From assembly GCA_024643795.1 (NCBI GenBank), contig JAHEMF010000015.1, positions 1 to 53,733 on the forward strand: 53,733 nt of DNA, in the 5' to 3' direction. Below the pieces are notes generated by a model. It was not told where the DNA came from. It made no database searches and saw only the letters and a program-made list of their open reading frames with translations. Each line of letters begins with the position of its first letter. Position 1 is the first letter of the stretch. Shown in pieces: positions 27,826 through 49,832 of this stretch. A program made the position numbers and the translations under genes. This DNA comes from Bacteroidota bacterium. Lineage in GTDB: Bacteria > Bacteroidota > Bacteroidia > AKYH767-A > OLB10.

Positions 27826-28626
27826 ATGAAAGTTAATTATTTTTTTCCCGGTGGCTCTGATAAGAAGTCCGTTGGGCACTTTTTCCTGCTCCTGGCATTG
27901 GGCATGGCATTTTCATTTACAGCCTGCGTTTCTAAAAAGGATATAGTTTATTTTCAGGAGTTTGAGGAAGATAGTAGTGATACTATTCCTGAATTAACCA
28001 TTGAAGATCCACGGCTTCAACATAATGATCTGATAGGTGTGCATGTAGCCAGCATAAACATGGAAGCTTCACAATTCTTTAATCCATCCGCTGATGCCAG
28101 TTCAGACCCCGGATCAGATATGACCAAATATCTGGTTGATTCAAATGGAGAGATAGAGATGCCTTTGATAGGTAGAGTGAAAGTTGCCGGCCTCACAACC
28201 AAAGAAACTAGTGACACATTAAGAACTTTATTGGAAAAGTACCTGGAAGCGCCAACAATAAGAGTTTATTTGAAGAGTTTTAAGATTACAATTCTTGGAG
28301 AGGTGAAACTACCTGGAGTATATTATATTCAAAACGAAAAGGTATCATTGCCCGAAGCACTTGGACTGGCAGGTGACATGACAATTTACGGTGCCCGTAA
28401 AGAGGTACAGGTGATCAGGGAAATTGACAACAACAGGGTCTTTATCAATGCAGACATGACAAGGAGAGAATTGTTCTCAACCAATGCTTATTTCCTGCGA
28501 CCTAACGATATTGTTTATGTACCGGCAGGGAAAGGAAGAATTGCCAGTGCAGACAACTTTTACAGGATAGCCCCATTAGTGATCTCAACACTCACACTTA
28601 TTTCACTTCTTTACATAAGATTTTAA
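27826..28626 (+). CDS. Outer-membrane polysaccharide export lipoprotein (Wza-like)
   Basis: 266 residues. The N-terminal hydrophobic stretch (FFLLLALGMAFSFTAC) ends in a lipobox with Cys34, so the mature protein is lipidated. Residues about 62-150 form the polysaccharide export (Poly_export) domain (LQHNDLIGVHVASINM, YLVDSNGEIEMPLIGRVKVAGLT). An SLBB-type beta-grasp follows at about 158-235 (ILGEVKLPGVYYI, LPEALGLAGDMTIYGAR, RPNDIVYVPAG). A C-terminal hydrophobic helix (APLVISTLTLISLLYI) matches the Wza-type amphipathic pore helix. It forms the outer-membrane channel for polymer export with the Wzc-like kinase encoded 29 bases downstream. First gene of the locus. Confidence 0.92.
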   Translation: MKVNYFFPGGSDKKSVGHFFLLLALGMAFSFTACVSKKDIVYFQEFEEDSSDTIPELTIEDPRLQHNDLIGVHVASINMEASQFFNPSADASSDPGSDMTKYLVDSNGEIEMPLIGRVKVAGLTTKETSDTLRTLLEKYLEAPTIRVYLKSFKITILGEVKLPGVYYIQNEKVSLPEALGLAGDMTIYGARKEVQVIREIDNNRVFINADMTRRELFSTNAYFLRPNDIVYVPAGKGRIASADNFYRIAPLVISTLTLISLLYIRF

Positions 28627-28655
28627 TTAAAGCATAATTAACAGAACGAAAGATA

Positions 28656-31073
28656 ATGGCTGATCAGCAAACTGAGTATTCGGTCCAGGATGAGAGAAAG
28701 ATAAACCTCAAGTATGTTTTTTTTAAATACTTCCTCAGGTATTGGTATGTTTATGTTGCCAGTTTGGCCATAATGTTTGCAATTGCCTATTACTACAATT
28801 GGTACACTACTCCTATTTATAATGCTTCATGTACCATACTTATTAAGGATGACAAAAGAGGTTCAGCGCAGGATCTGATGCAGCAACTGAATACTATGGA
28901 CAATCAGGGAGGAATAGAAAACGACCTTGAACTCATCAAGTCACGCACTATTATCAATCGCACCTTAAGGAGACTCGACTTCGACGTTTCATACACACTG
29001 GTTGGTAACATCAAAACTGCTGAACTTTACAAAGACTCTCCCATCAAATTGTCATACGACTCATTATCATTCAGGATATACGAGCAGGATATTAACGTAG
29101 AGATCTTGAACAGCAAAAATTATAAGATCACTTATAAACTAAAAAATGACGAAATAGCAGAAACAGGAACTCACCCATTTGACTCCACCATCACCGGAAC
29201 ATTCGGCAACTTCAAGATCTCTAAAACAAGTAAGTTCCGACCCTCACAATTTAATGATCCTGCCTATTCAAAGAGGAACTTCAAAATTAAGATCCACAAC
29301 TACGACCTGTTAACCGACTACTATTCGAGGAGAGTCAGAATTGATTTCTTATCAAAGAAAGCATCGATCCTGAAGTTATCACTACAAGACCCTGTTCCGC
29401 AAAAGGCTGGTGACTTTTTAAATATGCTGCTTGAAGTTTATATTCAGAGTGGAATTGATCAGAAGAATGAGATCGCGGCAAATTCACTCAAATTTATTGA
29501 TGAGCAATTGCAAAGAATAACCAAAGATCTCCAGAAAAGTGAACTGGATCTTGAGAACTTTAAAACCTCAAGGGGCATAACTGACCTGAGTACTGAAGCC
29601 GAATCATTTTTAGGAAGTGTAAAATCTATCGATGAAAAGATTTCTGAGATTGAGATACAACTATCATTTCTTGAATATCTTGAAACATACATCACAAACG
29701 ATCAGGATATTGAGAAAATTTCTCCGGCATCAATAGGGATTGCCGACAACTTACTACAGAAACTCATCACGCAACTCAGCGATCTTCAAAGCCAGAGAAA
29801 AAGTTTGTTAAATTCCACAAAGCCCGATAACCCTCTTGTAATATCGCTCAACATACAGATTCAAAATACTACGGAGGATCTTCTTGAGAATGTAAGATCA
29901 ATTCGTGATGGTTTGAAAGCAACGAAAGCACAAGCAGAATTGAGGCTCGATGATGTGCAGGAAAAAATCAAAGGCGTTCCAAGTACTCAAAGGGAACTGA
30001 TATCGAAACAAAGGCAGGCAACAGTTAGAGAAGCACTTTACAATTACCTTCTGCAAAAGAAAGCTGAAACCGCCATTCTACTCGCCAGTACAATTTCTGA
30101 CAACTGGGTTGTAGACTCCGCTCGTGCATCATACAAACCTGTGCGACCTGTTCCTGAGCAATCATACACTTTTGCATTTATCCTTGGGTTGTTGTTACCG
30201 GCTTCCCTGATATATATCAGAGATCTGATGAATGACGGTATACAGGATTTTAGTGACCTGCAAAACCTCACCAATATGCCGGTTCTTGGCATGGTAGGAT
30301 TTACCAGAGATAAAGCTTCATTGATAGTTTCTACCAGACCAGAATCACAAATAGCCGAAGCATTCAGATCTATACGGACCAACCTGCAGTATTTCCTTAA
30401 AAAGTCACATCCTAAAAAAATACTCATCACTTCATCCATAAGTGGAGAAGGAAAAAGTTTTTGCTCTGCAAACCTTGCTGCCATATATGCAGTTGCAGGT
30501 AAAAGAGTTGTATTGGTTAGCTGCGACTTAAGAAAACCCAAAAAGAACAAAGACTTCAATCTGGAATTCGATACCGGAATTTCCGATTACTTGATCGGGT
30601 CAGCCAAAATTGACCAGGTCATACAAAAGTCTAACATTGATAACTTATCCATCATTCTTTCAGGCCCCAAGCCACCTAATCCGGCCGAACTTATATTAAG
30701 TTCAAAGATGGATGACTTCTTTAAAGATCTTGAAGAACGGTTTGATGTGATAATAATAGATTCCCCTCCTATTGGCATTGTTACTGATGGTATGATACTT
30801 TCAAAGTATGCTGATCTTACAATTTATGTAGTAAGACAAAATGTAACCAAACGCCAGCACCTCCATTTCATATCCAAACTGATGAATGATAACCGTATTT
30901 CTAATATTGCAATGATATTCAATGCTGTTAAGGCAGATAGTCAGGCATACGGTTACGGATATGGTTATGGTTACGGATATGGTTATGGTTACGGATATGG
31001 TTACTACGATGATGACAAAAAAAAGTCATTAAAATCACTCAAAAACAGGATTCTTAACAAGATCAAAGCCTAA
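28656..31073 (+). CDS. Polysaccharide co-polymerase / tyrosine autokinase (Wzc-like)
   Basis: 805 residues. A first membrane helix at about 28-48 and a Wzz-type periplasmic domain with long coiled-coil helices (about 260-460, e.g. KFIDEQLQRITKDLQKSELD) are followed by the GNVR-like region and a second membrane helix (about 500-520). A cytoplasmic BY-kinase domain has Walker A near 590-600 (SSISGEGKSFCSANLA), Walker A' VVLVSCDLRKP (about 615-626) and Walker B VIIIDSPP (about 697). The tail has nine consecutive Gly-Tyr pairs (about 766-783), the autophosphorylation cluster, encoded by a DNA tandem repeat. It controls chain length and export through phosphorylation cycles. A partner phosphatase was not seen in this locus. 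Confidence 0.94.
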   Translation: MADQQTEYSVQDERKINLKYVFFKYFLRYWYVYVASLAIMFAIAYYYNWYTTPIYNASCTILIKDDKRGSAQDLMQQLNTMDNQGGIENDLELIKSRTIINRTLRRLDFDVSYTLVGNIKTAELYKDSPIKLSYDSLSFRIYEQDINVEILNSKNYKITYKLKNDEIAETGTHPFDSTITGTFGNFKISKTSKFRPSQFNDPAYSKRNFKIKIHNYDLLTDYYSRRVRIDFLSKKASILKLSLQDPVPQKAGDFLNMLLEVYIQSGIDQKNEIAANSLKFIDEQLQRITKDLQKSELDLENFKTSRGITDLSTEAESFLGSVKSIDEKISEIEIQLSFLEYLETYITNDQDIEKISPASIGIADNLLQKLITQLSDLQSQRKSLLNSTKPDNPLVISLNIQIQNTTEDLLENVRSIRDGLKATKAQAELRLDDVQEKIKGVPSTQRELISKQRQATVREALYNYLLQKKAETAILLASTISDNWVVDSARASYKPVRPVPEQSYTFAFILGLLLPASLIYIRDLMNDGIQDFSDLQNLTNMPVLGMVGFTRDKASLIVSTRPESQIAEAFRSIRTNLQYFLKKSHPKKILITSSISGEGKSFCSANLAAIYAVAGKRVVLVSCDLRKPKKNKDFNLEFDTGISDYLIGSAKIDQVIQKSNIDNLSIILSGPKPPNPAELILSSKMDDFFKDLEERFDVIIIDSPPIGIVTDGMILSKYADLTIYVVRQNVTKRQHLHFISKLMNDNRISNIAMIFNAVKADSQAYGYGYGYGYGYGYGYGYGYYDDDKKKSLKSLKNRILNKIKA
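30951..31004 (+). repeat. Three 18-bp tandem repeats encoding the Gly-Tyr tail
   Basis: Three copies of ggttacggatatggttat, the third differing only in its last base. Each unit encodes (Gly-Tyr) three times, so change in copy number would keep the reading frame and add or remove tyrosines of the kinase tail. Confidence 0.95.
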
Positions 31074-31122
31074 TAACCTACTACTCTACTTTTTATTTCC
31101 TGCAATTTACAAGCCATATTGA

Positions 31123-32475
31123 TTGAAAAATTTCATTTCATATCTCGGAAAGAAGTTCGACAGTCAAACTAAGCTGCTAGTAAAAAACACTTCATGGGTA
31201 CTTGGTTCAAATATGATCAGGACAGGACTTGTTTTCCTGAAATCGATTGTGATTGCCAGAGGATTAGGAGTTGAGTTTTATGGTATTTATGCACTGATCG
31301 TTGCATTTGTGGTTTCAATTCAGGATTTCTTCAACCTGAATATTGGCAATGCATTCATAAAGTTCGCAGCTGAGTATAAAACCAATGAGCGGACCGACAA
31401 GGTGGTTGCACTTATTAAGGTTTGTCTTCTGGCAACTGCTGCAACCGCGCTTCTGTCTATAATAATGATAGCTGTACTACTGAATGTTTCTTACGACCTT
31501 TTCGTTAATAAACCAGGTCTTGAGTGGTATATTTTCTTTTACGCTGTGGCAGATGTAGCATCATTTTTTGATCCTATGGGAAGAAGCATTTTAAGACTCT
31601 ATTATAAATTCAAAATAAATTCTATAATTCAAACAATCACAGCATTCATTGAATTTATTATTGTGACAACTGTTGTATTAATGAACCCTGCAGATCTGCG
31701 CTCATTTTTCATAGCTGTAGTTGTATCAAAGATCATAAATACCATCATTAATAACGGTGCCGGTTTATGGGAACTCAGACATGAATTCCTGCCTCATGCA
31801 AAAGCCGGTATTGGAATTGTAAAAGATCAGTTACGTGAGATAGGTGGTTATATAGTAGGTAACTCATTGAGTAAAACATTACTTACTTTAATGAATCAGG
31901 GTGATGTACTCATTCTTGGAGCTGCAATGGGCCCCAAACCTGTTGCATACTATGCAGTAGCCAAAAGGATGGCAAATATGTTGGGGGTAATAACCGATCC
32001 CTTTACCACTTCTGTTTTCCCGCAATTCTCAATACTACTTGCTGAGAATAGGCATAAAGAGATCAAGACCATGCTGATTAAAATTACCCGCACCGCAATT
32101 TTACCTTCCTTACTGGTAATTGTACTTGGTTATTTTCTGGGTGAACTGGTCATAACAACTGCATATGGTCCTGCTTATAGTCCAGCATCTGAGCCTTTCA
32201 CAATTTGCCTTATCGGCAGCGTTCTAACTTCGCTATTTTTCTGGAACCAATCATTGATGCAAAGTATGGGATTGATCGCATTTCGTTTTAAAGTATATCT
32301 TTTCGCAATAGCTTTAGGAGGTTTGCTGTCGTATTTTTATCTGGTTCCCAACCAGGGAAGTGTTGGTATGGCCATTGGGGTTGTACTTACAAAGGTCATT
32401 ATCATTACTATCTTTACAACCACAGCATTCATCAAATTAAAATCGCCTGATATTGAAAGTGGAACCGCACCATAG
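31123..32475 (+). CDS. Oligosaccharide repeat-unit flippase (Wzx-like)
   Basis: 450 residues with about 12-14 hydrophobic helices, the MATE/MOP-type polysaccharide transporter layout. Family segments near the N-terminus are SWVLGSNMIRTGLVFLKSIVIARGLG (here described, about 23-48) and YGIYALIVAFV. It moves lipid-linked repeat units across the inner membrane for polymerisation. The start is a TTG at 31123 (MKNFISYLGKKF), since the first in-frame ATG would cut into the first membrane helix. It lies 49 bases after the kinase gene, and its 3' end overlaps the sulfotransferase gene by 23 bases if that gene uses its TTG. Confidence 0.87.
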   Translation: MKNFISYLGKKFDSQTKLLVKNTSWVLGSNMIRTGLVFLKSIVIARGLGVEFYGIYALIVAFVVSIQDFFNLNIGNAFIKFAAEYKTNERTDKVVALIKVCLLATAATALLSIIMIAVLLNVSYDLFVNKPGLEWYIFFYAVADVASFFDPMGRSILRLYYKFKINSIIQTITAFIEFIIVTTVVLMNPADLRSFFIAVVVSKIINTIINNGAGLWELRHEFLPHAKAGIGIVKDQLREIGGYIVGNSLSKTLLTLMNQGDVLILGAAMGPKPVAYYAVAKRMANMLGVITDPFTTSVFPQFSILLAENRHKEIKTMLIKITRTAILPSLLVIVLGYFLGELVITTAYGPAYSPASEPFTICLIGSVLTSLFFWNQSLMQSMGLIAFRFKVYLFAIALGGLLSYFYLVPNQGSVGMAIGVVLTKVIIITIFTTTAFIKLKSPDIESGTAP

Positions 32476-33322
32476 AAAAAAGAGTAAACCACCCAAGCTT
32501 GAGATAGCCAGGTATAAGTTAGCACACCTCACCCGGAAAGCTACATCTTACAAAAGAGTGCTACCTGATTTCCTGATCATTGGTGCTGCAAAAGCAGGTA
32601 CTACATCGCTTTATAATTACTTATTACAACATCCTCAGGTTGCGCCTTGTTTCAGAAAAGAGGTTCACTATTTTGATCGCAAATACAACAAAGGTTTAAA
32701 ATGGTATAAGAGTCATTTTCCTCTTAGTTCAGAAATGAATGTTCAACTCAAAATGGTCACAGGTGAAAGTTCACCATATTATCTTTATCATCCTCTGGCT
32801 GCAGAACGAGTATCTAAAACACTACCTTCTGTAAGGTTATTTTGCATGTTAAGAAATCCGATAGACAGGGCCATATCTAATTATAACCACAGGGTGAGAG
32901 CAGGTTTTGAAAGCCTTCCCATAGAAGAAGCATTTGCTATTGAGAAAGAGAGGATCTCCGGCGAAAATTTAAAGCTCATCAACAATCCTGAGTATGTAAG
33001 TTATAATCATTACCATTTTTCATACATAACCCGGGGGTATTACGCCGAACAGTTGGAAAACTGGTTTTCGCACATTTCAAAAGATCAGATTCTGATCCTG
33101 AACAGTGAGCAATTTTATACTGATCCTGCTACAGCAATGAAAAAAGCATTCAATCATCTCGCATTACCATGGAATGACAGACTCCAATTTAAGGTATTCA
33201 ATTCAGGAGGTGAAAATTATGTGAATGTATCTGACACTTTTAGAAAAAACCTCGTCAACCATTACAAACCGTATAATGAAAAGCTATTTGAGCTTATTGG
33301 CGAACGTTATGATTGGCAATAA
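32453..33322 (+). CDS. PAPS-dependent sulfotransferase domain protein (first)
   Basis: 289 residues. The 5'-phosphosulfate-binding loop is IGAAKAGTTSLYNYLLQHP (about 44-62) and the 3'-phosphate-binding segment is MLRNPIDRAISNYNHR (about 133-148), as in carbohydrate (heparan-type) sulfotransferases. KEVHYFDR (about 68-75) holds the conserved active-site region, with Lys and Glu. It should transfer sulfate from PAPS to a glycan hydroxyl or amine in the cytoplasm. The likely start is a TTG at 32453, with a nearby GTG at 32459 as an alternative; no ATG precedes the core domain. PAPS synthesis genes are not in the window. Confidence 0.88.
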   Translation: MKVEPHHRKKSKPPKLEIARYKLAHLTRKATSYKRVLPDFLIIGAAKAGTTSLYNYLLQHPQVAPCFRKEVHYFDRKYNKGLKWYKSHFPLSSEMNVQLKMVTGESSPYYLYHPLAAERVSKTLPSVRLFCMLRNPIDRAISNYNHRVRAGFESLPIEEAFAIEKERISGENLKLINNPEYVSYNHYHFSYITRGYYAEQLENWFSHISKDQILILNSEQFYTDPATAMKKAFNHLALPWNDRLQFKVFNSGGENYVNVSDTFRKNLVNHYKPYNEKLFELIGERYDWQ

Positions 33323-33343
33323 TCACAGCAAAACTAATATTCT

Positions 33344-34336
33344 GTGAACCTGCGCGAACTGAACAAATTTTTAAATGGAGGTGTCAATAGTTTTATTGAT
33401 GCCCTTTACATACTGGCACTTCCTAAACTTTGGTTCAGGCTAAAATCTACACAAATTTACTATAATCAGGAAAATCCTGAAACATCGAAAGGTTCTGCCA
33501 TTGAATTGACGCAAAGCCTTTTTCAAAACAATACCCCAACGGTAGTTGAACTCAAACATTATCTGGAAAAAAATATTCCGGATCATTATACAAGTGTGTT
33601 GGTACATGGAAGTGTTGCATCAAATGAAATAATTGGCTACAGTGACCTGGATCTTATTATCATCATAAAAGACTCGGTATTAAAAAACCCAAAGTTACTT
33701 TCTAAAACAGGGTATCATTTATACCGATCAAGAAGATTCTTGCATAAATTCGATCCTTTACAACATCACGGATTGTTTATTATTCCGGAATCCTTTCTAA
33801 GAGACTTTGATACCGGTTTTATTCCGGTAAGCTTATTAGCAGAAGCCAAAGTGCTTAGCGGCGAAAAAAGCTTCACAATTAATGTTTCGACTTATCCATA
33901 CAGGGGCAGGCTTGAGGTTGTGACTCAGCACTTGAGAAAGATCATTCAACAGCATAGGATTCCAAATAATAAATATGGATTAAAAGCCGTATTGAGCGAA
34001 TTCATGTTATTGCCTGCTCTTTACATCCAGGAGAGATACAAGACCGATATTTCAAAAAAGGACAGCTTTCTTGAGGCTTCAAAAGACTTTTCTGAAACTG
34101 ATTATGCTATCATGAACGAAATAAGCGCTATCCGTTTAAACTGGAAAAAAGATATTCCATTACTAAGGAGTAAGTTACTATGTTTGTTACGGGCCTTACC
34201 GGGAGGTAAAATCGGATTTTTATCAGGCAAGGCAAACAAGGATATTGTAAATGGATTGAAAGGCGTACAGGGACAAAAAATGATAAGGTTAATGGATGTG
34301 ATGTTAGAAAAAGCACACAAAGCTGATAAGAAATGA
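33344..34336 (+). CDS. Nucleotidyltransferase-fold protein (first)
   Basis: 330 residues from a GTG at 33344. The only clear motif is the pol-beta-type nucleotidyltransferase signature VLVHGSVASNEIIGYSDLDLIII (about 84-106): a Gly-Ser followed by Asp-x-Asp, which bind the metal and nucleotide triphosphate. The rest is helical and not matched to a named family. It may transfer a nucleotidyl or similar group to a protein, lipid or sugar, or be a non-catalytic relative. It lies between two sulfotransferase genes, overlapping the second by 4 bases (ATGA), so it is translationally coupled with sulfation enzymes. No known glycan-locus role is established for it. Confidence 0.68.
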   Translation: MNLRELNKFLNGGVNSFIDALYILALPKLWFRLKSTQIYYNQENPETSKGSAIELTQSLFQNNTPTVVELKHYLEKNIPDHYTSVLVHGSVASNEIIGYSDLDLIIIIKDSVLKNPKLLSKTGYHLYRSRRFLHKFDPLQHHGLFIIPESFLRDFDTGFIPVSLLAEAKVLSGEKSFTINVSTYPYRGRLEVVTQHLRKIIQQHRIPNNKYGLKAVLSEFMLLPALYIQERYKTDISKKDSFLEASKDFSETDYAIMNEISAIRLNWKKDIPLLRSKLLCLLRALPGGKIGFLSGKANKDIVNGLKGVQGQKMIRLMDVMLEKAHKADKK

Positions 34337-35088
34337 AATATGCTTTCATCACAGGTATGGGGCGTTCAGGAACAAAATTCCTGACTGCATTATTGTCGCA
34401 AAGTAAAAATGCAGTTGTAAAGCATGAACATATTGGTAACCGAGAGTTCTGGCTTTTGAGCTGGTATCTTGACAAGAACGCTTACACCATACCCTATCTT
34501 GAAAACGAGAAAGACAATATTGAATCAGGATTGCAAAAAGAGTTGTTCATTGATGTGAACAGCAGACTTCAGAATTCGGTACCTGAACTTGAAAAGGTCT
34601 TTCAAACTCAAAATATCTATCATTTGGTACGTGATCCCCGAAAGGTGATCCCCTCATTGTACAGCAGGAGATCAGAGAACAATGTCCATCAAGTACCGAA
34701 AAATGAAACTGAATTCAGAATTTGGTTAAAGAGTGATAAGTTGTATCAGGTTTGCTGGAACTGGGCAGACACAACAAAAAGACTTTTGAAACAAAACACA
34801 ACCCTGATCCGCTTTGAAGATCTGTTGACAGATTACGGGTATCTTAATAAAAACCTGCTATCACCTTTACAGTTAAATGATATAGATGAAACAAAATGGT
34901 CGCAGGTAAAATCAAAAAAAGTAAATCAAACTCTTCCTTCAGCATACAGGTATCTTTATTCACTGGTAAAGAAAAAAGATTTTGTTAGTGAGTCACTCCC
35001 TGAGTTCAATGAATGGGATAGTAAAAGTCAACAAATGCTATTTGATGTTTGTGGTGAAGTAATGAACCTGGCAGGATACCGGATCTGA
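34333..35088 (+). CDS. Sulfotransferase family protein (second)
   Basis: 251 residues. P-loop-like PAPS motif ITGMGRSGTKFLTALLSQ (about 6-23), with VKHEHIGN shortly after, and a 3'-phosphate segment LVRDPRKVIPSLYSRR (about 98-113). ENNVHQVPKNETEF and IRFEDLLTDYGYL follow as in Sulfotransfer family proteins of exopolysaccharide loci. It is likely to sulfate a hydroxyl of the repeat unit. The start ATG overlaps the preceding nucleotidyltransferase-fold stop by 4 bases. The next gene on the plus strand is separated by a reversed sulfotransferase gene. Confidence 0.85.
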   Translation: MKYAFITGMGRSGTKFLTALLSQSKNAVVKHEHIGNREFWLLSWYLDKNAYTIPYLENEKDNIESGLQKELFIDVNSRLQNSVPELEKVFQTQNIYHLVRDPRKVIPSLYSRRSENNVHQVPKNETEFRIWLKSDKLYQVCWNWADTTKRLLKQNTTLIRFEDLLTDYGYLNKNLLSPLQLNDIDETKWSQVKSKKVNQTLPSAYRYLYSLVKKKDFVSESLPEFNEWDSKSQQMLFDVCGEVMNLAGYRI

Positions 35089-35097
35089 TATTAACTA

Positions 35098-35949
35098 TCA
35101 GGCCAACTGAGGGGTTATCAGCTCATACCCCAACTTCTTCATAACATCACCTGCAACCCTGTTGATGATATCGATATCATCGTCTGTTAGATTTTTGAAG
35201 GATGTTTTATTGAAGTTTTCAATACTGGTAGTACGTTCATGAATCCTGAAATCCTTTTCAATGATCTCGATAGGCAGATGTGGAATTTGAATAAAATCAA
35301 ATATCCTATTCAGAGTGTTTACAGGATCGTGCGTTAATTCCTCATATTGGATATTGATCTTATTCTCTACTGAATTCAGGTCTTTTTGCATAATATCATT
35401 AGAAACGCTCCACTGGCTAGCTGCCATTTCAATATTATGACCAGCCTTTCTTCTTATTCCTTCTGATACTGCATAACCATTGCGAACCAGTGAAATGAAG
35501 TGGGCATTCTTAAAATTTTTGTTCAACCATTTTACACGTCCTGCATTCACTATAGACTTTTCAATCAACACAGGTCTGTCAGGATGATTATACATAAACG
35601 CCCATTGCCTTTTTATTTTGGAAACATTGATATCAAGCCCTGATGTTTCATCGAGATAAAAAAGCTCAGGTTTAAGTGCCCACAACCTGGGTAAGCCAAA
35701 ATCTACCGCATTGGTCAATTCGTTAGTAAAGTTTCGGCCCTCTTTAGGCATGCTTCCAACCATATGATGCTGAGCAATTATATTATGCAACAATGTGGTA
35801 CCGGAATTATAACATCCCAGTAAAAAGACCCACTTATCAGGTTGAGGTTCCCGATAGAACCTATACCCCATCTCTTTAAGCTTCATTTTCAGCATAATAT
35901 GCTGCTTATGAGCTACATGTTCAAGATGCTTTAATGAATATTTCTTCAT
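35098..35949 (-). CDS. Sulfotransferase family protein (third, antisense to the locus)
   Basis: 283 residues. Near residue 41 is the 5'-PAPS loop LLGCYNSGTTLLHNIIAQH, and near 150-166 is LVRNGYAVSEGIRRKAG, the 3'-phosphate segment; IQYEELTHDPVNTLNRIFDFI is the typical downstream helix. All other genes from 27.8 to 51.4 kb run on the plus strand, so this one is transcribed against the locus. Its start codon shares bases with an ATG of the divergent next gene (CATG at 35947-35950). It lies 9 bases from the end of the second sulfotransferase gene. It probably acts on a different position or residue of the same glycan. Confidence 0.87.
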   Translation of the reverse strand: MKKYSLKHLEHVAHKQHIMLKMKLKEMGYRFYREPQPDKWVFLLGCYNSGTTLLHNIIAQHHMVGSMPKEGRNFTNELTNAVDFGLPRLWALKPELFYLDETSGLDINVSKIKRQWAFMYNHPDRPVLIEKSIVNAGRVKWLNKNFKNAHFISLVRNGYAVSEGIRRKAGHNIEMAASQWSVSNDIMQKDLNSVENKINIQYEELTHDPVNTLNRIFDFIQIPHLPIEIIEKDFRIHERTTSIENFNKTSFKNLTDDDIDIINRVAGDVMKKLGYELITPQLA

Positions 35950-36031
35950 GCCCTATAAGTGCAAAAATAAACAAAGTCAGGATAGTATGCCTACGGCTCT
36001 CAAACCATATATTTGCATCCCGCACATAAAA

Positions 36032-37015
36032 ATGCCTTACAAATACATATATAAACCGCCAACCGCAACTGTTGAACAATATGACCGGGTTGTTGATCTA
36101 GTATGTAAAAAGATCAAAAAACAACCGGGGGTTTTAGCTATTTATCAGTTTGGCCATTTGAACACTCCGGGCATTTCTGATATCGATATTTTAACTGTAT
36201 TTGATAAAGGGAGCAGCTGTCTGATAGATCCATTAGATGGATGTCCTGATGAATTAAAAAAACTTTTTACTCATTCTGTGCAAGGAATATCTGCACATCA
36301 TCTTGAGCCATTGATGAAATATTCATTTTGGCATAACTACAATTTACTTTATTCTGCTGAGGGGAAAGATATTCTGCCTGCATCATCAATAAGTAAAGAA
36401 ATCATCATTCCTCTTAAGCAACAGATCGCAACTGAATACCTCACTACAAACTATATTGATATGGTTATGCAGCAGTCGATCGGAATTATAAAGGTTCGAT
36501 CACTCTTTCAACATGTGAAGGGGTTTATTTACGATTTTGATTTTCTGGGATATGATGATCCTGCCTTAAGAGATAAAGTTGAAACTGTAAGAGGATGGAT
36601 CAAACAACATAACCATCAGCCTGTAAGTGATCGTGAGATAGGGACATGGCTGGATGACTTTATGCCAACCTTTAAAATTTTTCTTCAAAAGGTGTATGAA
36701 ACCAACCCACTCTACCTACCTAAAAGGGATATTTATAATTATGGTAGAAACATCAAGGTTATTGCCAGAGGACCTGTTCAATGCAAGCACACTGGATTTC
36801 GTGTGCCACGCATACCCGGCATTATGACCGACAAACAATTTTATCGCTTACAGAACAGATTCAATAATTTTGAATTTCATTTTCCTATTACACATCAGGA
36901 GCCATTTCCAGGGGCTTCAGACAGAATTAAAGAAGCTCTGGAAATGAGGACGTACTGTAAATTACACATCCCACACTTTGCTCCATTACTAACCAGATTC
37001 ATGCTGCAACTATAA
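36032..37015 (+). CDS. Nucleotidyltransferase-like protein (second), function unknown
   Basis: I chose the ATG at 36032 (327 residues, MPYKYIYKPP). The frame can also start at 35948 (355 residues), but that ATG overlaps the start of the antisense sulfotransferase, and the extra residues are low in predicted structure. Near residue 37 (from 36032) is IYQFGHLNTPGISDIDILTVFD, which resembles the nucleotidyltransferase signature with the Asp-x-Asp pair kept, but the usual Gly-Ser is Gly-His. The rest has no recognised domain; the C-terminus is aromatic and basic (TGFRVPRIPG, NNFEFHFPI). It may be a divergent or inactive relative of the gene at 33344. Followed 10 bases later by a glycosyltransferase gene. 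Confidence 0.6.
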   Translation: MPYKYIYKPPTATVEQYDRVVDLVCKKIKKQPGVLAIYQFGHLNTPGISDIDILTVFDKGSSCLIDPLDGCPDELKKLFTHSVQGISAHHLEPLMKYSFWHNYNLLYSAEGKDILPASSISKEIIIPLKQQIATEYLTTNYIDMVMQQSIGIIKVRSLFQHVKGFIYDFDFLGYDDPALRDKVETVRGWIKQHNHQPVSDREIGTWLDDFMPTFKIFLQKVYETNPLYLPKRDIYNYGRNIKVIARGPVQCKHTGFRVPRIPGIMTDKQFYRLQNRFNNFEFHFPITHQEPFPGASDRIKEALEMRTYCKLHIPHFAPLLTRFMLQL

Positions 37016-37025
37016 ATATTGAAGA

Positions 37026-38147
37026 ATGAATAAGTCTGATCAATTAAAGGTGACACATTTCATTTGGTCTGCTAGTTTTGGCGGAATTGAAAAAGTTGTT
37101 CTGGATCTTTGTCAAAGTCAGTTTAAGTCAGATTTTGTTTCACCAACTTTATTGATAGGAAAAAGATCAGGTGCATTTCTGGAATTGTTGGCACAAATCG
37201 GGATCAACTATCAATTCGCCGGATTTCGTTCAGGAAAAGATATAAGATATGATTTACTGAAAAGTATCAAAAAGGTATTCATGGCTTGTGACATTATCCA
37301 TATTCACACCTTCAATCCGTTGGTTGCCTTTGCAGCTAAAGCATCAGGTAAGCCAGTGATTTATACTATTCACGGTAACTTTGGCTTTGGCCGAAAGCTA
37401 CATTTCTGGGAAAATCTGAACAAAAAAATGCTTGGTTATTTTTTAAGGAATCACGTACAAAGAATCACCTGTAATTCTGAATTCACCTTACAAAAGGCTA
37501 TACAGCATTATGAAATTGACAGTAAAAAGTGTGAGGTGATCTTTAATGGGATACCTATGAAGATTAAGGCAGACAGAGCACTGGTTGATCAAGAAACTCT
37601 CTCTTTCATAGAGAATAAATTTGTGATCGGAACTTCTTCCAGATTTGCGGGCTTTAAAAGAATAGACAGACTTATATCTGCCTTTCATCAAACAATTCCA
37701 CACGCCCCTGATGCTGTGTTGATGCTTGTTGGAGATGGTATCCTGAAAGAGCAGCTTCAAGAACAGGTAAGTTCATTGGGCATTGAAAACAAAGTCCGAT
37801 TCACAGGATACCAGCAAAGTGTTGGATCTTATCAGCAATGCATGGATATTTGTGTGTTTCCTTCAGAAAACGAACCTTTCGGACTTGTAGCAATTGAAAC
37901 TCTGCTACTGGGCAAACCTACTCTCATATTTAATGACGGCGGAGGAATGGCTCAATTAATAGAAAAGAAGTTCCCCGAATATATTGTTAGCTCAATTGAT
38001 GACCTTAGCTGTAAGATGCTTGAACTTTACAACAATCCTTCACCTGAAGCAGAGATTCAAAAAAGGATCTCCTATGCGCAACAGTACGACATAGAATCGA
38101 TGAGCAAAAAATTGAAAGAAGTTTACAATTCAGTGTTAAAAAAATGA
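37026..38147 (+). CDS. GT4-family glycosyltransferase (first)
   Basis: 373 residues with a GT-B fold: N-terminal acceptor half starting FIWSASFGGIEKVVLDL (about 13-29), DIIHIHTFNPLVAF (about 90-103), and a C-terminal donor half (about 195-365) with GTSSRFAGFKRIDRLI, LMLVGDGILKEQL and the E-x7-E motif in PSENEPFGLVAIETLLLG. A retaining transferase that adds a sugar to the lipid-linked repeat unit. Donor and acceptor are not predictable. It overlaps the following glycosyltransferase by 4 bases. Confidence 0.93.
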   Translation: MNKSDQLKVTHFIWSASFGGIEKVVLDLCQSQFKSDFVSPTLLIGKRSGAFLELLAQIGINYQFAGFRSGKDIRYDLLKSIKKVFMACDIIHIHTFNPLVAFAAKASGKPVIYTIHGNFGFGRKLHFWENLNKKMLGYFLRNHVQRITCNSEFTLQKAIQHYEIDSKKCEVIFNGIPMKIKADRALVDQETLSFIENKFVIGTSSRFAGFKRIDRLISAFHQTIPHAPDAVLMLVGDGILKEQLQEQVSSLGIENKVRFTGYQQSVGSYQQCMDICVFPSENEPFGLVAIETLLLGKPTLIFNDGGGMAQLIEKKFPEYIVSSIDDLSCKMLELYNNPSPEAEIQKRISYAQQYDIESMSKKLKEVYNSVLKK

Positions 38148-39289
38148 ATAGCCGTCGTAAAGTAGTTCTTGTTACAAATATACCCAGCCCCTATAGGATA
38201 CCTTTATTCAATGAATTGACCAAACAGTTGAGGAATATTGAATTGGACCTTGTGGTGATCTTTGGTAACAGGATATATTCCAGGCGTAAGTTCGATGCCA
38301 TCCCTGAAAAGGAGTATGAATTTGAGTTTCACTTTTTAAACTCAGAGACCATAAATTTTGGTAATGAAGAAAAAACTTATTTCAGCTATAAAGGGTTATT
38401 CAAATTGATCAAAATGATTGATCCTGCATGTGTGATCATGAACGGATTTACCATTGCAGCTACAAGACTCTGGTTGCAATCATTTATCAGTAAGCGACCT
38501 TACATCCTGTGGGTAGGGTCAGTGATCAAACAAGGTCGTTTTGATTCAATGGCTCGACGCATTCAGCGAAAATTGATCATAAACCGATCTGCTTCATTTA
38601 TAGCATACGGAAGCATGGCGAGAGAATACCTATTGAAGATGAATGCTCCACCGGAAAAGATTTTCATAGGTATAAATACCGTTGATACCTCATTTTTTAA
38701 AAGTGCTACCGAATCCATCAGATCACAAGGTCATATTAAAGAAAAGCATCACCTTACTTATATAGGATATCTCTCCAAACGTAAAAATGTTAATAAAGTA
38801 TTAGAGGTGGTGCAGCAACTTCAACAAAGAAGAAATGACTTTATTCTGGATCTTATAGGCGATGGACCTGAAAAAGAAGCATTGGAAAACTATGTTAAAG
38901 AAAGTGGTATCACTGATCTGGTTAGATTCCATGGATTCAAACAAAAGGATGAATTGCCGGGTTACCTGGCCGTGAGCGATTGTTTATTGTTTCAAACAGA
39001 CTTTGACATTTGGGGATTAGTGTTGAATGAAACGCTGGCCGCCGGAGTACCAGTGATAGCCTCCACAAATGCCGGAGCTACGAAAGATCTGATCATAGAT
39101 GGTGTTACAGGATACATATCAGACTACAACGACCCCATCAAGGTTTGTGAAATAATTGAAGTCTTGTTTGACAACCAGGACCTTGCTAAAAAGATAAGTG
39201 ATGAAGCAAGAGCTCATGTTTCAAACTATGCCAGCATAGAAGTAAGTGCCCGCGGATTTGCTGATGCGGTTAAATTTGGGTTGAGCTGA
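38144..39289 (+). CDS. GT4-family glycosyltransferase (second)
   Basis: 381 residues, GT-B fold. N-terminal VLVTNIPSPYRIPLFNELTKQ (abbreviated, about 8-27) is typical of capsule transferases. The donor half has YIGYLSKRKNVNKVLEVVQQL (about 206-226), LDLIGDGPEKEALE (about 239-252), and FDIWGLVLNETLAAGVPVIA, whose second Glu is present while the first position of E-x7-E is Asp. Same operon as its neighbours, with coupled start (ATGA overlap). It is 31 bases upstream of the polymerase gene. Confidence 0.92.
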   Translation: MNSRRKVVLVTNIPSPYRIPLFNELTKQLRNIELDLVVIFGNRIYSRRKFDAIPEKEYEFEFHFLNSETINFGNEEKTYFSYKGLFKLIKMIDPACVIMNGFTIAATRLWLQSFISKRPYILWVGSVIKQGRFDSMARRIQRKLIINRSASFIAYGSMAREYLLKMNAPPEKIFIGINTVDTSFFKSATESIRSQGHIKEKHHLTYIGYLSKRKNVNKVLEVVQQLQQRRNDFILDLIGDGPEKEALENYVKESGITDLVRFHGFKQKDELPGYLAVSDCLLFQTDFDIWGLVLNETLAAGVPVIASTNAGATKDLIIDGVTGYISDYNDPIKVCEIIEVLFDNQDLAKKISDEARAHVSNYASIEVSARGFADAVKFGLS

Positions 39290-39304
39290 TTTTCAATACA
39301 TTTG
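39275..39304 (+). promoter_or_regulatory. Candidate internal promoter (TTTG-N18-TACATTTGC) before the polymerase gene
   Basis: TTTG at 39275-39278, 18 bases, then TACATTTG at 39297-39304 and C: a full match to the consensus. It starts inside the end of the preceding glycosyltransferase gene and the -7 box is 16 bases from the GTG start at 39321. It would permit separate expression of the polymerase and downstream genes. Confidence 0.5.
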
Positions 39305-39320
39305 CACATCAAAGAGAATA

Positions 39321-40574
39321 GTGAGTTACAAGGAATGGAGAATATGGTTTAAAGAAATGCCGTGGTCACTGGCGTGGTTTGTACTGTTGGTGCTTTTTCG
39401 TCCGGTCATCGATAACTTTTATTACCTTAAAGAAACTTCCCCATTCCTGTCGCCACTCTACATTGTTGGGGTACTTACACCATTATTATCAGTTGTAGCC
39501 ATTATTAAGGTACCAAAACCAAACTATTCCAGGTTAGATTCAGTGATGGCGGTGTATTCTACCCTGATATTCTTATCATGCGCATTCCTGCTTATCCGGG
39601 CAGGTTTTTCTATGGATTCGCTTGAAGTCAGCCTTAAATTATCCCTGCCTGCATTTGTGTATTTCTTTGGCAGAAGATTCATACGTTCAAAAAAAGATCT
39701 GTTGGGGATATTTCAAACGTTCATATATTCGGCAGCCTTTGTTCTTGTTATACTTGGATATGAATTGATATTTAATCCTATTAGTGTACAAATGTCTCGA
39801 GGGCTGGAAAGGATACAAGGGAATTTTGCAGACGTAATCAACTATGCAATTTATGCCACTTGCGGTGTGTTACTTGCCGGATTCTATTACTTTGATAAAA
39901 GCAAAAGCTGGAAATTCAATAAACGGGTGACCATTTTTATGATAACAGTAGTTATCAGTCTGGTCATTATCAGCAACATTCACCATACTGCAAGCTATGC
40001 TGTAATTATGGGTTTGTTCATAATATTTCTTGTCAATAATCTTCGCTCAAACCTGGGTGGGGCGGTATTTTTCATACTCACAGCCGCAGTTGTGGTATAT
40101 ACGTTTGGAAAGGAAACAATTGATGAGAATATTATGCCACTGATTGAAACAGATATTCAGGTTTATGAAGGTGAAAAAGATAGTGAAGCACTTTTGCATG
40201 GTCGTGTTGGCAGATGGGAAAGTTTTCTGGAAGTATTTGATGAATCAAATGTGGTAAGTAAATTAATTGGGCTGCCTTCAGGTATGGATGAACCTTTCAA
40301 ATATATTTCTAAAGGAGCGCACAATGATTTTTTAAGAATAATGATGTTTACAGGTCTTGCCGGACTGTTTGCGTACCTGATTTTCCTGTTCAGCTCCTTT
40401 ATGAGAACTCTTAAACATGATACGCCCATGAGATTTCTGGGTCTTGGAACATTGGCGATCTTTTTCCTTTATTCAATCAGCACTACCCCATCGCTTTATG
40501 CACCTTTGTTATATATTTTAATACCGGTCTTTTGTATGCTGGCATTGCCTGTGAACATGATGGATAAGAAATGA
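39321..40574 (+). CDS. O-antigen polymerase/ligase-like membrane protein (Wzy-like)
   Basis: 417 residues, mostly hydrophobic, with about 10-12 membrane helices. The start is a GTG. A large periplasmic loop at about 255-335 includes GRVGRWESFLEVFDESN and SKGAHNDFLRIMMFTGLAGLF, whose H-N-D-F-L-R pattern is seen in O-antigen polymerases and ligases. It polymerises repeat units at the periplasmic face in Wzx/Wzy systems. Sequence alone does not separate polymerase from ligase, but the presence of Wzx- and Wzc-like proteins and no other polymerase candidate favours polymerase. It overlaps the following glycosyltransferase by 4 bases. Confidence 0.84.
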   Translation: MSYKEWRIWFKEMPWSLAWFVLLVLFRPVIDNFYYLKETSPFLSPLYIVGVLTPLLSVVAIIKVPKPNYSRLDSVMAVYSTLIFLSCAFLLIRAGFSMDSLEVSLKLSLPAFVYFFGRRFIRSKKDLLGIFQTFIYSAAFVLVILGYELIFNPISVQMSRGLERIQGNFADVINYAIYATCGVLLAGFYYFDKSKSWKFNKRVTIFMITVVISLVIISNIHHTASYAVIMGLFIIFLVNNLRSNLGGAVFFILTAAVVVYTFGKETIDENIMPLIETDIQVYEGEKDSEALLHGRVGRWESFLEVFDESNVVSKLIGLPSGMDEPFKYISKGAHNDFLRIMMFTGLAGLFAYLIFLFSSFMRTLKHDTPMRFLGLGTLAIFFLYSISTTPSLYAPLLYILIPVFCMLALPVNMMDKK

Positions 40575-41674
40575 CACCAAAGAAGATTTTGATCCTTGGT
40601 AAGATACCACCACCCTACATGGGACCTGCCATTGCAACTGAGATCTTGCTCAATTCAGGATTGAAGGAGCGTTATAATTTATTGCACCTTGATACACGGG
40701 CACATCAGGATATCAATGAACTGGGGAAATTCAGTATAAAAAAGATTTTTAGGAATATCACTATTTATTTCAGTTTGTACTCGCTGATCAAAAAAGAATC
40801 TCCTCACCTGGTTCTTATACCTATATCTCAAACCACTATCGGGTTTTTAAAAGATTCCTTATTCATTGTCACTTCAAGATTAGCAGGTGCAAAAATATTG
40901 ATCCAACTAAGGGGAAGTGGTTTCAAAGATTGGTATGACCACGCTACTTCTTTCATTCGAAGTTATGTTCGAAAAGTTCTCGGACATACACAAGGTGTTA
41001 TAGTGCTGGGAAACAACCTGAAATATCTATTCAGAGATTTTTTTAATGATGAGCAGATATATGTTGCACCAAATGGTGCCAACTATGACATTCCTGCTCC
41101 AATAAGAAATGATAAGAATAAGATCAAGCTTATCTATCTTGCCAACCTACAGGCATCTAAAGGAATTGAAGATGTTATAAGAGCTATTGTATTCTTGAAT
41201 CAGGCTATGCCCGGTACATTTGTTTTGGATGTAATTGGAAACTGGCGTGATGAGAAAACAAAATCCACATTAATGGAACTTGTTTCTGAAAACAAACTGC
41301 CTGTAAATTTTCCCGGGCCTTCCAAAGGAAGTGAGAAGTTCAGGCTGTTAAGTAGTTCAGACATTTTTCTTTTTACTCCACGCGAGCCGGAAGGTCATCC
41401 ATGGGTAATAGTAGAAGCCATGGCTTGCGGACTGCCGATCATATCAACAGATCAGGGTGCAATCATTGAATCTGTGATCAACGGAGAAAACGGATTTATT
41501 GTACCGGTGAGTGATCCGAATGCTATTTTTGAAAAAATAAAACTCCTCATCAATAACAAAGATCTTCGAATCAGAATGGGGCAACTTTCCAAAGAATATT
41601 ACCTTCAAAAGTTTACTGAAACCCAGTTGGTTGAAAACTATTCAAAAGCTTTCGAAAAAGCGATTTTGGGATAA
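40571..41674 (+). CDS. GT4-family glycosyltransferase (third)
   Basis: 367 residues, GT-B fold. N-terminal LILGKIPPPYMGPAIATEIL (about 6-25). C-terminal donor half with IYLANLQASKGIEDVIRAI (about 194-212), a pyrophosphate-binding region GNWRDEK, and the E-x7-E-type stretch TPREPEGHPWVIVEAMACGLP. It adds a sugar to the repeat unit. It closes a tightly packed stretch: the next gene is 173 bases away with its own promoter-like element. Confidence 0.92.
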   Translation: MTPKKILILGKIPPPYMGPAIATEILLNSGLKERYNLLHLDTRAHQDINELGKFSIKKIFRNITIYFSLYSLIKKESPHLVLIPISQTTIGFLKDSLFIVTSRLAGAKILIQLRGSGFKDWYDHATSFIRSYVRKVLGHTQGVIVLGNNLKYLFRDFFNDEQIYVAPNGANYDIPAPIRNDKNKIKLIYLANLQASKGIEDVIRAIVFLNQAMPGTFVLDVIGNWRDEKTKSTLMELVSENKLPVNFPGPSKGSEKFRLLSSSDIFLFTPREPEGHPWVIVEAMACGLPIISTDQGAIIESVINGENGFIVPVSDPNAIFEKIKLLINNKDLRIRMGQLSKEYYLQKFTETQLVENYSKAFEKAILG

Positions 41675-41847: not shown

Positions 41848-44010
41848 ATGGAGCAATTAACTCAAAATCTCAAGGACGGGACCATGCAGATCCTGGAAGT
41901 ACCTTATCCTGCATTAAGCAGTGGTCAGGTATTGGTACGTAACCACTATTCTTTGATCAGTTCAGGAACCGAAGGGAAAACTGTGAAGGATGCCCGACTG
42001 GGATATATTGGCAAGGCAAGAGCCAGAAAAGAAGAGGTTAAAAAAGTATTTGATGCAGCCCGCACCTTTGGTGTCATGAATACCTACCGCATGGTGATGA
42101 ATAAGCTTGATGCGCCATCATCACTTGGTTATAGTTGTGCTGGTGAAGTAATTGCCGTTGCGGAAGATGTATCCATATTTCGGGTAGGTGATATGGTTGC
42201 TTGTGGTGGAGCTTCAGCTGTTCATGCCGAAGTAGTTGCAGTACCTGTAAATTTATGTGTACGCCTTTTGTCGGAAGTGGATGCTGCCGCAGGTGCATTT
42301 ACAACAGTTGGGGCCATAGCTTTGCAGGGCATCCGTCAAGCTGATCTGAGGCTTGGAGAAAACTGTGTGGTTATAGGTCTTGGACTTGTGGGTCAGCTTA
42401 CTATTCAAATGTTAAGAGCGGCAGGTGTAAAAGTGGCAGGAATAGATATTGATGATCAAATGATCAACAAAGCCCGCCTCGGTGGTTGCGAACTGGTCAT
42501 GAACAGAAACCAACCGGGTATTGAGGAGTCAGTCTTAGAATTCACTGATGGATATGGTACGGATGCAGTAATAATTACTGCCGGTGCCGACTCTACAGAT
42601 CCGGTAGACCTGGCAGGTGCACTTTGCAGAAAGAAAGGAAAAGTGATCATAGTAGGTGGCGTACCTACAGGATTCAAGAGACCTAATTATTTCAAAAAAG
42701 AGCTTGATCTTAGAATGTCATCTTCATATGGACCAGGACGCTATGATCTGGAATATGAAGAGAATGGCATTGACTACCCCTATGGATATGTAAGGTGGAC
42801 TGAGAACAGGAACATGCAAGCTTTCGTGGAGATGGTTGATTCAGGCAGGCTGAATATACGCGAACTCATAACTCACACATTTGATTTTAAAGACGCGCAC
42901 AAAGCTTATGAACTGGTACTTAAAAGAACTGAATCATTTGTTGGCATAGTTTTAAGGTACGACACTAACAAAGAACTTAAAAGGTCTGTTGTGGTTAATC
43001 CTGAAAAGGAATTTAACCCTGCGGATGCTAATATAGGGTTGATCGGTGCCGGATCATTTGGTCAAAATTTCTTGCTACCTGCGCTAAAAGGAAAAGCTAA
43101 TTTCATATCTGTTGCTACAGCAAGGCCGAATAATGCAGTAAATATAGCTACCAAACACGGATTCATTAACTCTACCGGTGATAGCGAAGAGCTCATCAAC
43201 AACGAAAAAGTGAATACCATTTTCATTGCCACACGACATAATACACACGCTTCACTGGTAAAATCATCTCTCGAGAGAAATAAAAATGTTTTTGTTGAAA
43301 AACCATTGTGTCTCACAAGAGATGAACTTAAAGATATAGCGGATACCTATGCAACCAAAAATGCGAAGTTAATGGTTGGTTTCAACAGAAGATTTGCACC
43401 TTTCACAAAGAAATTGATGCAGTCTCTTCCGGTTGACACTCCGCGGTCAATTGTTTACCGCATCAATGCGGGTATAATTCCTGCCGATCATTGGGTACAC
43501 AACCCTGCAATAGGTGGCGGCAGGATCATTGGTGAGCTTTGCCATTTTATAGACCTTGCAATGCATATTGCAGGTTCAAATATCAAATCAATATCGGCAC
43601 AGGCGATCAGAGACGGCAAAGATCTTCATGATACACTTGTTGTTAATATTCAATTTGAGAATGGAAGCATTGCCGGTATTAACTATTTCAGTAACGGTAA
43701 TAAAGCGTTAAGCAAAGAATATCTTGAGGTATTTTCAGGTGGCGTTGCTGTGATCATAGATGATTTCAAAACACTTACCATTCATTCAGGGAAATCTTCA
43801 AAGGAAAGTGGAGATCAGGATAAAGGGCATAACCACGAGGTTGAAGAGTTTTTAAATTCCATTAAAAATGGAACACCCTCTCCTATTCCATTCAATGAAC
43901 TGATCATTACAACCCTGGCAACATTTGGAGTTCTTGAATCAATAGCACGATCGGGTGAAAAGATCGATATCTCCATAGAAAACCTAATTGAGAATAATTC
44001 CGGGAACTAA
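41848..44010 (+). CDS. Two-domain oxidoreductase: MDR dehydrogenase fused to Gfo/Idh/MocA
   Basis: 720 residues. Residues about 1-365 form a zinc-type medium-chain dehydrogenase (LISSGTEGKTV, DAPSSLGYSCAGEVIAVAEDV, ENCVVIGLGLVGQLTIQ Rossmann, DAVIITAGADS). Residues about 390-715 form a Gfo/Idh/MocA oxidoreductase (IGLIGAGSFGQNFLLPALKG Rossmann, FIATRHNTHASLV, NVFVEKPLCLTRDELK with the E-K-P catalytic motif, MVGFNRRFAPF, GELCHFIDLAMHIAG). Known in polysaccharide loci of several phyla, often beside heparinase-like or epimerase-like genes, and thought to oxidise, reduce or epimerise a sugar. Here it is followed at a 1-base gap by a toroid protein. The substrate is unknown. Confidence 0.92.
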   Translation: MEQLTQNLKDGTMQILEVPYPALSSGQVLVRNHYSLISSGTEGKTVKDARLGYIGKARARKEEVKKVFDAARTFGVMNTYRMVMNKLDAPSSLGYSCAGEVIAVAEDVSIFRVGDMVACGGASAVHAEVVAVPVNLCVRLLSEVDAAAGAFTTVGAIALQGIRQADLRLGENCVVIGLGLVGQLTIQMLRAAGVKVAGIDIDDQMINKARLGGCELVMNRNQPGIEESVLEFTDGYGTDAVIITAGADSTDPVDLAGALCRKKGKVIIVGGVPTGFKRPNYFKKELDLRMSSSYGPGRYDLEYEENGIDYPYGYVRWTENRNMQAFVEMVDSGRLNIRELITHTFDFKDAHKAYELVLKRTESFVGIVLRYDTNKELKRSVVVNPEKEFNPADANIGLIGAGSFGQNFLLPALKGKANFISVATARPNNAVNIATKHGFINSTGDSEELINNEKVNTIFIATRHNTHASLVKSSLERNKNVFVEKPLCLTRDELKDIADTYATKNAKLMVGFNRRFAPFTKKLMQSLPVDTPRSIVYRINAGIIPADHWVHNPAIGGGRIIGELCHFIDLAMHIAGSNIKSISAQAIRDGKDLHDTLVVNIQFENGSIAGINYFSNGNKALSKEYLEVFSGGVAVIIDDFKTLTIHSGKSSKESGDQDKGHNHEVEEFLNSIKNGTPSPIPFNELIITTLATFGVLESIARSGEKIDISIENLIENNSGN

Positions 44011-44011
44011 A

Positions 44012-46410: not shown

Positions 46411-46425
46411 ATAGCCAACTAGTAA

Positions 46426-47379: not shown

Positions 47380-47445
47380 GCAAATGGATATAACATCAGC
47401 AACCGGAATAATATAATTCCGGCCTGATGCACATCTCAGTCGGGA

Positions 47446-48504: not shown

Positions 48505-48684
48505 AACTATATATAAAGCTGATTTTCAATTTCTTATGAAGTTATATGTTTTGTATCAAATCTTCATATCTACTTCCCGAAAGATGGGTATAAATTGTAC
48601 TTTTATGCCGAGTTAACAAAAAGCTATTTATTATTTCGACACAGTGGAATGAGCCGTTGATCACACGGGTTGCAAATTCAGTAT
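48505..48684 (+). promoter_or_regulatory. Intergenic interval with shared composite motif before the sugar transferase
   Basis: About 180 bases without a gene. It contains TTTTAT (48601), CCGAGTTAACA (48608-48618) and AGCCGTTGATC (48652-48662), matching elements before the two-domain oxidoreductase in the same order but with wider spacing. No exact TAnnTTTG lies close to the start; TATGTTTTG at 48546-48554 has one extra base. Nothing else recognised. Confidence 0.35.
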
Positions 48685-49806: not shown

Positions 49807-49832
49807 AGTAGCATCAAAACCTTGGTCTCTGT

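Follow-up and report, generated by a model that had tools for sequence, protein, structure and literature searches.

A linked pair of AadA-like nucleotidyltransferase-fold proteins in surface-glycan loci of bacteria and archaea

The analyzed window, a contig of 53,733 nucleotides from the 2.88-Mb genome of an uncultured Bacteroidota bacterium, carries two nucleotidyltransferase-fold proteins, termed NT1 and NT2, and three sulfotransferases, termed ST1, ST2, and ST3, in a locus for exopolysaccharide export. The first-pass annotation had proposed that the two kinds of enzymes form a coupled module. Comparison with other genomes showed that the conserved unit is the NT1-NT2 pair and not a combination of sulfotransferase and nucleotidyltransferase genes. 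We estimate a probability of about 50% that NT1 and NT2 function as a single AadA/ANT-like unit, probably a hetero-complex, which is dedicated to cell-surface glycan assembly, with NT1 catalyzing a nucleotidyl or otherwise phosphate-linked transfer. In agreement with the initial statement that no glycan pathway with both enzyme families was known, searches confined largely to open-access literature yielded no description of the NT1-NT2 pair.

The exopolysaccharide locus and the NT1-NT2 pair

All five genes lie within a Wzx/Wzy-type exopolysaccharide locus that spans 27826-51446 and represents the Wza-Wzc-Wzx-Wzy operon type. The export part at 27826..32475 (plus strand) encodes a Wza-like export protein, a Wzc-like co-polymerase/tyrosine kinase, and the Wzx flippase, of which Wzx was identified by Pfam and the other two by sequence reading and conserved synteny. 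NT1, an AadA/ANT-like protein of 330 aa, is encoded at 33344..34336 (plus strand), and NT2, the second AadA-like protein with 327 aa from the methionine at 36032, at 36032..37015 (plus strand). A conserved core 3' of NT2 at 37026..41674 (plus strand) encodes the glycosyltransferases GT_a, GT_b, and GT_c together with a Wzy/O-antigen-ligase-like polymerase, whose match is below the Pfam cut-off. The rest of the locus at 41848..51446 (plus strand) encodes a fused Zn-dehydrogenase/Gfo-Idh oxidoreductase, two alpha/alpha-barrel-type sugar enzymes, a methyltransferase, a DUF354 protein, an initiating sugar-phosphate transferase, and a protein that is Wzi-like by a match below the Pfam cut-off. Scanning the region for promoters and terminators gave results close to chance level.

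NT1 and NT2 are present in the same 21 of the 24 genomes of the window's family, and the other three genomes lack both, one of them (G007) having a 30-residue NT2 remnant that was detected by profile (E 8.6e-6). In the sister family, NT2 occurs in 9 of 11 genomes. Contig scans detected NT2 in Aminicenantes, a thermoplasmatal archaeon, Syntrophorhabdus, Woesearchaeota, Flavobacteriales, an alphaproteobacterium, and the cyanobacterium Phormidesmis, and the complete pair is found sporadically in Acidobacteriota, cyanobacteria, an alphaproteobacterium, Syntrophorhabdus, a thermoplasmatal metagenome-assembled genome, and several nanoarchaeotal genomes. The phylum-wide surveys covered 395 Bacteroidota, 292 cyanobacterial-phylum, 361 nanoarchaeotal-phylum, and 386 Aminicenantes-phylum genomes and scored no more than the few top candidates of each genome, so that statements about rarity are approximate; the phylum names of the sampled relatives are those inferred from the named record that centered each search. 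Among the best few candidates scored in each of the 395 phylum genomes, there was no full-length NT1 without NT2. A plasmid collection searched for NT1 relatives and viral contigs searched for NT2 relatives yielded none. The relatives are mostly metagenome-assembled genomes, for which tight neighborhoods within one assembled contig are safe and the taxonomic label of single contigs is not, the thermoplasmatal contig having just 3.4 kb.

Wherever linkage could be tested, the two genes were found in one neighborhood (45/45 loci). Throughout the 37 jointly scanned loci, NT1 precedes NT2 and both have the same orientation; in 22 of these loci, they are directly adjacent or have a gap within about 110 bp, and in the rest they are one to five genes apart. 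Overlaps of 4-20 bp between NT1 and NT2 are common. Direct adjacency was also seen in all eight further nanoarchaeotal and Acidobacteriota loci, three of which have the genes in convergent (tail to tail) orientation. An apparent NT1-NT2 fusion is encoded in one Bacteroidota genome (G173), where residues 125-403 of a 1141-aa protein make up an NT1 domain (63 bits, as scored with filters off on an excised fragment of 420 residues) and residues 439-636 make up an NT2 domain (65 bits). The tree distances of NT1 and NT2 correlate with r = 0.77, a value reached by none of 5000 permutations; this is expected for a co-inherited pair, and simple co-inheritance of neighbors also yields correlation.

Nearly all loci with the pair have a glycan-assembly context, be it Wzx/Wzy, a Wzt-type ABC system in a cyanobacterium, or an archaeal Wzx with a UDP-sugar dehydrogenase. 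One alphaproteobacterial pair adjoins guaA on a contig piece in which no glycan gene was recognizable. The constant linkage, the apparent fusion, and the location in glycan operons argue for a joint role of NT1 and NT2 in the synthesis or decoration of a surface polysaccharide. The earlier suggestion that the nucleotidyltransferases modify the glycan of an export locus is retained in part: placement in an exopolysaccharide locus is confirmed and glycan modification is probable, whereas the coupling to sulfotransferases had to be given up.

Folds and active sites of NT1 and NT2

The assignment as nucleotidyltransferases had been made from motifs and needed structural support, because NT1 matched the Pfam models Polbeta/NTP_transf_2 only below threshold (E 8e-4 and 4e-3; 19.9 of 26.9 and 18 of 21 bits) and NT2 did not match them. 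A cyanobacterial NT1 relative passes PF01909 (22 bits versus a cut-off of 21). The NCBIfam ANT models matched neither NT1 nor NT2 of the window, and the NT1 of another locus (L108) scored 22 bits against ANT_9, the cut-off of which is 340. NT2 had no family-level sequence match to any nucleotidyltransferase, and a PDB search by sequence with the single NT proteins gave no significant match. At the sequence level, the NT1 family profile matched AAD(9) with an E-value of 2.8e-4 and DrrA with an E-value of 3.9e-4.

The AlphaFold models, built on 19-member family alignments, had pLDDT values of 87 (NT1) and 88 (NT2) and matched AadA/ANT-type nucleotidyltransferases, which bears out the motif-based assignment of the fold. 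In comparisons with ANT(3,9)/AadA by Foldseek and VIA-align, NT1 gave a Z of 11.9 over 210 residues at 3.5 A, and NT2 gave a moderate fold match with a Z of 9.1 over 191 residues at 3.3 A, at sequence identities of 9-15% to AadA/ANT enzymes. In the model comparison, similarity to HEPN proteins was seen for the C-terminal bundle of NT1 (Z of about 8.5). Judged from these models, NT1 and NT2 each look like a nucleotidyltransferase core that is followed by an AadA/HEPN-like helical bundle.

The putative active site of NT1 comprises the Gly-Ser at 33608-33613, the SDxD motif with D101/D103 at 33644-33652, and the D137-x-L-Q-H-H142 motif at 33752-33769. G89-S90, S100-D101, Asp137, His141, His142, Lys214, Lys238, and Arg264 are invariant in 37/37 pairs, and D103 and Q140 are Asp and Gln, respectively, in 36/37, with DxE once. 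In the NT1 domain of the fusion protein, an Asn replaces the otherwise invariant Asp of DxxQHH. For NT2, residues are counted from the ATG at 35948; the start at 36032 suits the homologues better than this upstream ATG, and the extra residues 1-27 are modeled below pLDDT 50. NT2 contains G69-H70 (36152-36157), the PGISDID motif (36167-36187), and the invariant His109 (36272-36274), and it keeps G69, G75, S77, D78, D80, and His109 across the 37 pairs. The invariant Asp137 and His142 of NT1 and His109 of NT2 appear to lie near the strand of the catalytic E87 of AadA.

The exchange of Gly-Ser to Gly-His that had been noted in NT2 is correct for the window's genome. In the 37 relatives, however, G69 is followed by G, S, N, H, T, or K, which makes Gly-His one of several variants at a loosely constrained site rather than an exceptional change. 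The idea that the exchange indicates an inactive second enzyme was set aside, as Ser is never fixed in the NT2 family and the DxD is invariant; metal binding by NT2 may persist because of this invariant DxD. A profile alignment of NT1 and NT2, in which the LQHH of NT1 is aligned to the LFTH of NT2 with weak statistics (probability 27%, E 6.6e-4), suggests a common ancestry of the two proteins.

Proposed function of the pair

Our best reading is that the pair is an undescribed two-subunit transferase that adds a phosphate-linked, probably nucleotidyl, substituent, with a chemistry that we infer. NT1, which has the intact active-site signature, would be the catalytic subunit and would transfer a nucleotidyl group, namely AMP by analogy with AadA, ANT(9), GlnE, and DrrA, or another phosphate-linked group. 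The acceptor would be a hydroxyl group on either the lipid-linked repeat unit or a sugar precursor, and the transfer would take place on the cytoplasmic side, ahead of the flippase or ABC export. NT2 would be a partner that shapes acceptor binding, or it could perform a second, diverged step. The three sulfotransferases would sulfate the same glycan from PAPS as independent, lineage-specific decorations. By analogy, we favor as the mechanism a nucleotidyl transfer to the hydroxyl of a sugar, since the closest folds, which are of the AadA/ANT type, catalyze AMP transfer from ATP onto a hydroxyl (PMC11646218).

The constant pair in glycan operons of two domains of life points to an unrecognized chemical step in surface-polysaccharide assembly. 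That a two-subunit nucleotidyltransferase, sporadic in bacteria and archaea, puts nucleotides such as AMP on extracellular or lipid-linked polysaccharides is a more specific proposal that we consider less likely than not. If it is true, some microbial surface glycans would be nucleotide-decorated, and those of the window's lineage would be both sulfated and nucleotidylated. Drugs and proteins are known targets of antibiotic-adenylylating-type nucleotidyltransferase-fold enzymes, and such a step in glycan assembly would suggest a role of AadA-type enzymes beyond antibiotic resistance. For the annotation of hypothetical proteins, GS-SDxD-DxxQHH followed by PGISDxD-LxxH could serve as a marker.

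The main rival is a LicD-like phosphotransfer, in which the donor would be an alcohol such as choline, glycerol, or ribitol in CDP- or NDP-linked form and the phospho-alcohol, not the nucleotide, would be moved to the glycan. LicD proteins belong to the nucleotidyltransferase superfamily and use CDP-conjugates in capsule and wall-polymer synthesis, an example being CpsC (PMC11666461). In one genus, a glycerol-3-phosphate dehydrogenase gene is close to the NT pair (L049, 7324-8274), and in two distant loci (L109 and L114), a gene for a PF01663 phosphodiesterase/nucleotide pyrophosphatase lies directly upstream; both would be in line with such a reaction. However, PF04991 matched neither NT1 nor NT2 at E-values up to 1 and none of the relatives searched, no dedicated CDP-alcohol synthase was recognized in the annotated loci, and the fold matches listed are AadA-like. 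LicD/FKRP-type structures were not among these listed matches, which counts as no evidence against them. We consider transfer of a phospho-alcohol rather unlikely.

Still less probable in our view is a regulatory AMPylation, by which NT1 and NT2 would modify a protein of the polysaccharide machinery and thereby switch the glycan output, comparable to the action of GlnE on glutamine synthetase and of DrrA on Rab1. GlnE and DrrA are indeed among the structural neighbors, and the NT1 profile also matches DrrA at the sequence level. However, the hosts, which have Wzc/Wzy, ABC-transporter, or archaeal Wzx loci, share no single machinery protein, and the NT pair stays while the gene content of the loci varies strongly. 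The pair is found together with more than one type of export system, which makes an action on a single specific export protein improbable.

Sulfotransferases and comparison with known systems

The coordinates and identities of all five genes hold, and the three sulfotransferases are of the PAPS type. ST1 (32453-33322, plus strand) matches Sulfotransfer_1 with an E-value of 3.9e-17, and ST2 (34333-35088, plus strand) and ST3 (35098-35949, minus strand) match Sulfotransfer_3 with E-values of 3.2e-9 and 2.1e-18. With 63, 37.8, and 67.8 bits, they all pass the Pfam cut-offs of 22-27 (PF00685/PF13469), and the 5'-PAPS loops KAGTTSL, RSGTKFL, and NSGTTLL are visible in their translations. As the genome also encodes an APS kinase (APS_kinase, E 1.3e-68, G000:C45:39627-40073), PAPS-dependent sulfation by the host is plausible, and sulfotransferases in Wzx/Wzy loci have a precedent in synechan (PMC8205485). 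The APS kinase gene belongs to a second cluster on contig C45, which has four more sulfotransferase-domain matches.

What could speak for a coupled sulfotransferase-nucleotidyltransferase biosynthetic module is that ST1, NT1, and ST2 run in the same direction, with a 4-bp overlap of ST2 with the NT1 stop, and that six further relatives have similar sulfotransferases beside or within the NT pair. ST2 and the oppositely oriented ST3 lie between NT1 and NT2, an opposite orientation that was seen again in three relatives, and ST1 is an accessory neighbor that is near NT1 in some relatives only. Such a pairing is, however, not conserved in other genomes, and most NT pairs have no sulfotransferase between them. 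Sulfotransferases lie between NT1 and NT2 in only 5 of the 20 family loci with both genes readable (the window, L054, L055, L057, and L066), in 0 of 7 sister-family loci, and in none of the distant loci, as determined by BLAST with the window genome's own sulfotransferases. A commoner occupant of this slot is a GINT1_N-domain protein (genera g3, g7, g8, and g9), and two sister-family loci have a methyltransferase or similar small gene there. Two genomes of genus g10 (G020 and G023) contain the NT pair and no Sulfotransfer_3 match, and two others (G010 and G013) contain several Sulfotransfer_3 matches and neither NT gene, as scored genome-wide by Sulfotransfer_3 in the relatives, with PF00685 searched in the window's genome. 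Judged from this gene content, gain and loss of the two functions are independent, and the sulfotransferases appear to be optional, lineage-specific sulfation genes. This non-conservation largely refutes the coupled module, which we consider very improbable.

It is highly improbable that a HEPN-MNT-type toxin-antitoxin or defence nucleotidyltransferase has by chance entered variable glycan islands: the HEPN-like bundle of NT1 and weak PADLOC matches to MNT-like and cyclase models (best E 7.8e-6) would fit, but these matches span about 50 residues of the generic nucleotidyltransferase motif only, no RX4-6H motif stands out among the invariant NT1 residues, the corresponding His of NT2 is kept in just 28/37 (E, N, R, S, or I elsewhere), and a fixed place in glycan operons across a whole family is untypical of toxin-antitoxin systems.

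Known HEPN-MNT pairs share with the NT proteins an MNT-like core and a HEPN-like bundle, but both folds are fused in each NT protein, RX4-6H is not conserved, and the context is a glycan operon. GlnE and DrrA have a related fold, and GlnE combines two nucleotidyltransferase domains in one protein, like the fused NT1-NT2; they act on proteins, however, and the NT pair has no GlnE-like size or context. LicD, FKTN, and FKRP (PF04991) exemplify the superfamily at work in glycan synthesis (PMC11666461), but differ in the family match that NT1 and NT2 lack. The synechan xss locus of Synechocystis likewise has two or more PAPS-type sulfotransferases in a Wzx/Wzy locus, but belongs to another phylum, and the word nucleotidyltransferase is absent from its description (PMC8205485). 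Most similar are AadA, ANT(3'')(9), and ANT(9), which share the predicted nucleotidyltransferase domain and C-terminal helical bundle with NT1 and NT2 and the GS-DxD metal-binding signature with NT1; sugar- or cyclitol-like acceptors are plausible. In contrast to these enzymes, the NT1 of a relative is below the ANT_9 cut-off, sequence identity is low, NT1 has a conserved DxxQHH, and NT1 and NT2 always form a two-gene pair that is found in glycan loci throughout a bacterial family and is not a mobile resistance gene.

Fusion, orientation and upstream neighbor of the NT pair

In the fusion locus L131 of the Bacteroidota genome G173, NT1-like and NT2-like domains are fused in a single protein of 1141 aa (L131:9018-12443), which shows weak TPR matches close to its C terminus and is followed by a protein of 1192 aa that carries three glycosyltransferase domains. 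Some nanoarchaeotal genomes (L160, L161, and L163) have NT1 and NT2 in convergent rather than collinear orientation, yet next to each other. In two MAGs, one archaeal and one of Syntrophorhabdus, the NT pair is immediately preceded by a PF01663 phosphodiesterase/nucleotide pyrophosphatase gene (L109:3-1409 and L114:7274-8839, respectively).

Further genes of the glycan and sulfotransferase loci

The Wzc-like protein of the window (28656-31073) ends in a long C-terminal Gly-Tyr repeat (YGYGYGYG...), presumably its autophosphorylation cluster. In a Woesearchaeota MAG, a LAGLIDADG domain, probably an intein, interrupts a sugar dehydratase/epimerase gene (L117:11501-13456). Outside the window, a second sulfotransferase locus of the same genome, L123 (G000:C45:27234-40073), contains the APS kinase of the genome and four sulfotransferase-domain matches, and is probably its main sulfation cluster.

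The slot between NT1 and NT2

The sulfotransferase gene ST3 (35098-35949) lies between NT1 and NT2 on the strand opposite to the operon, an orientation seen again in three relatives (L054, L055, and L066). The slot occupied by the window's sulfotransferases holds in other relatives a GINT1_N-domain protein of 466-534 aa (L063:9505-10911 and equivalents), a domain familiar from the plant glucosamine inositolphosphorylceramide transferase.
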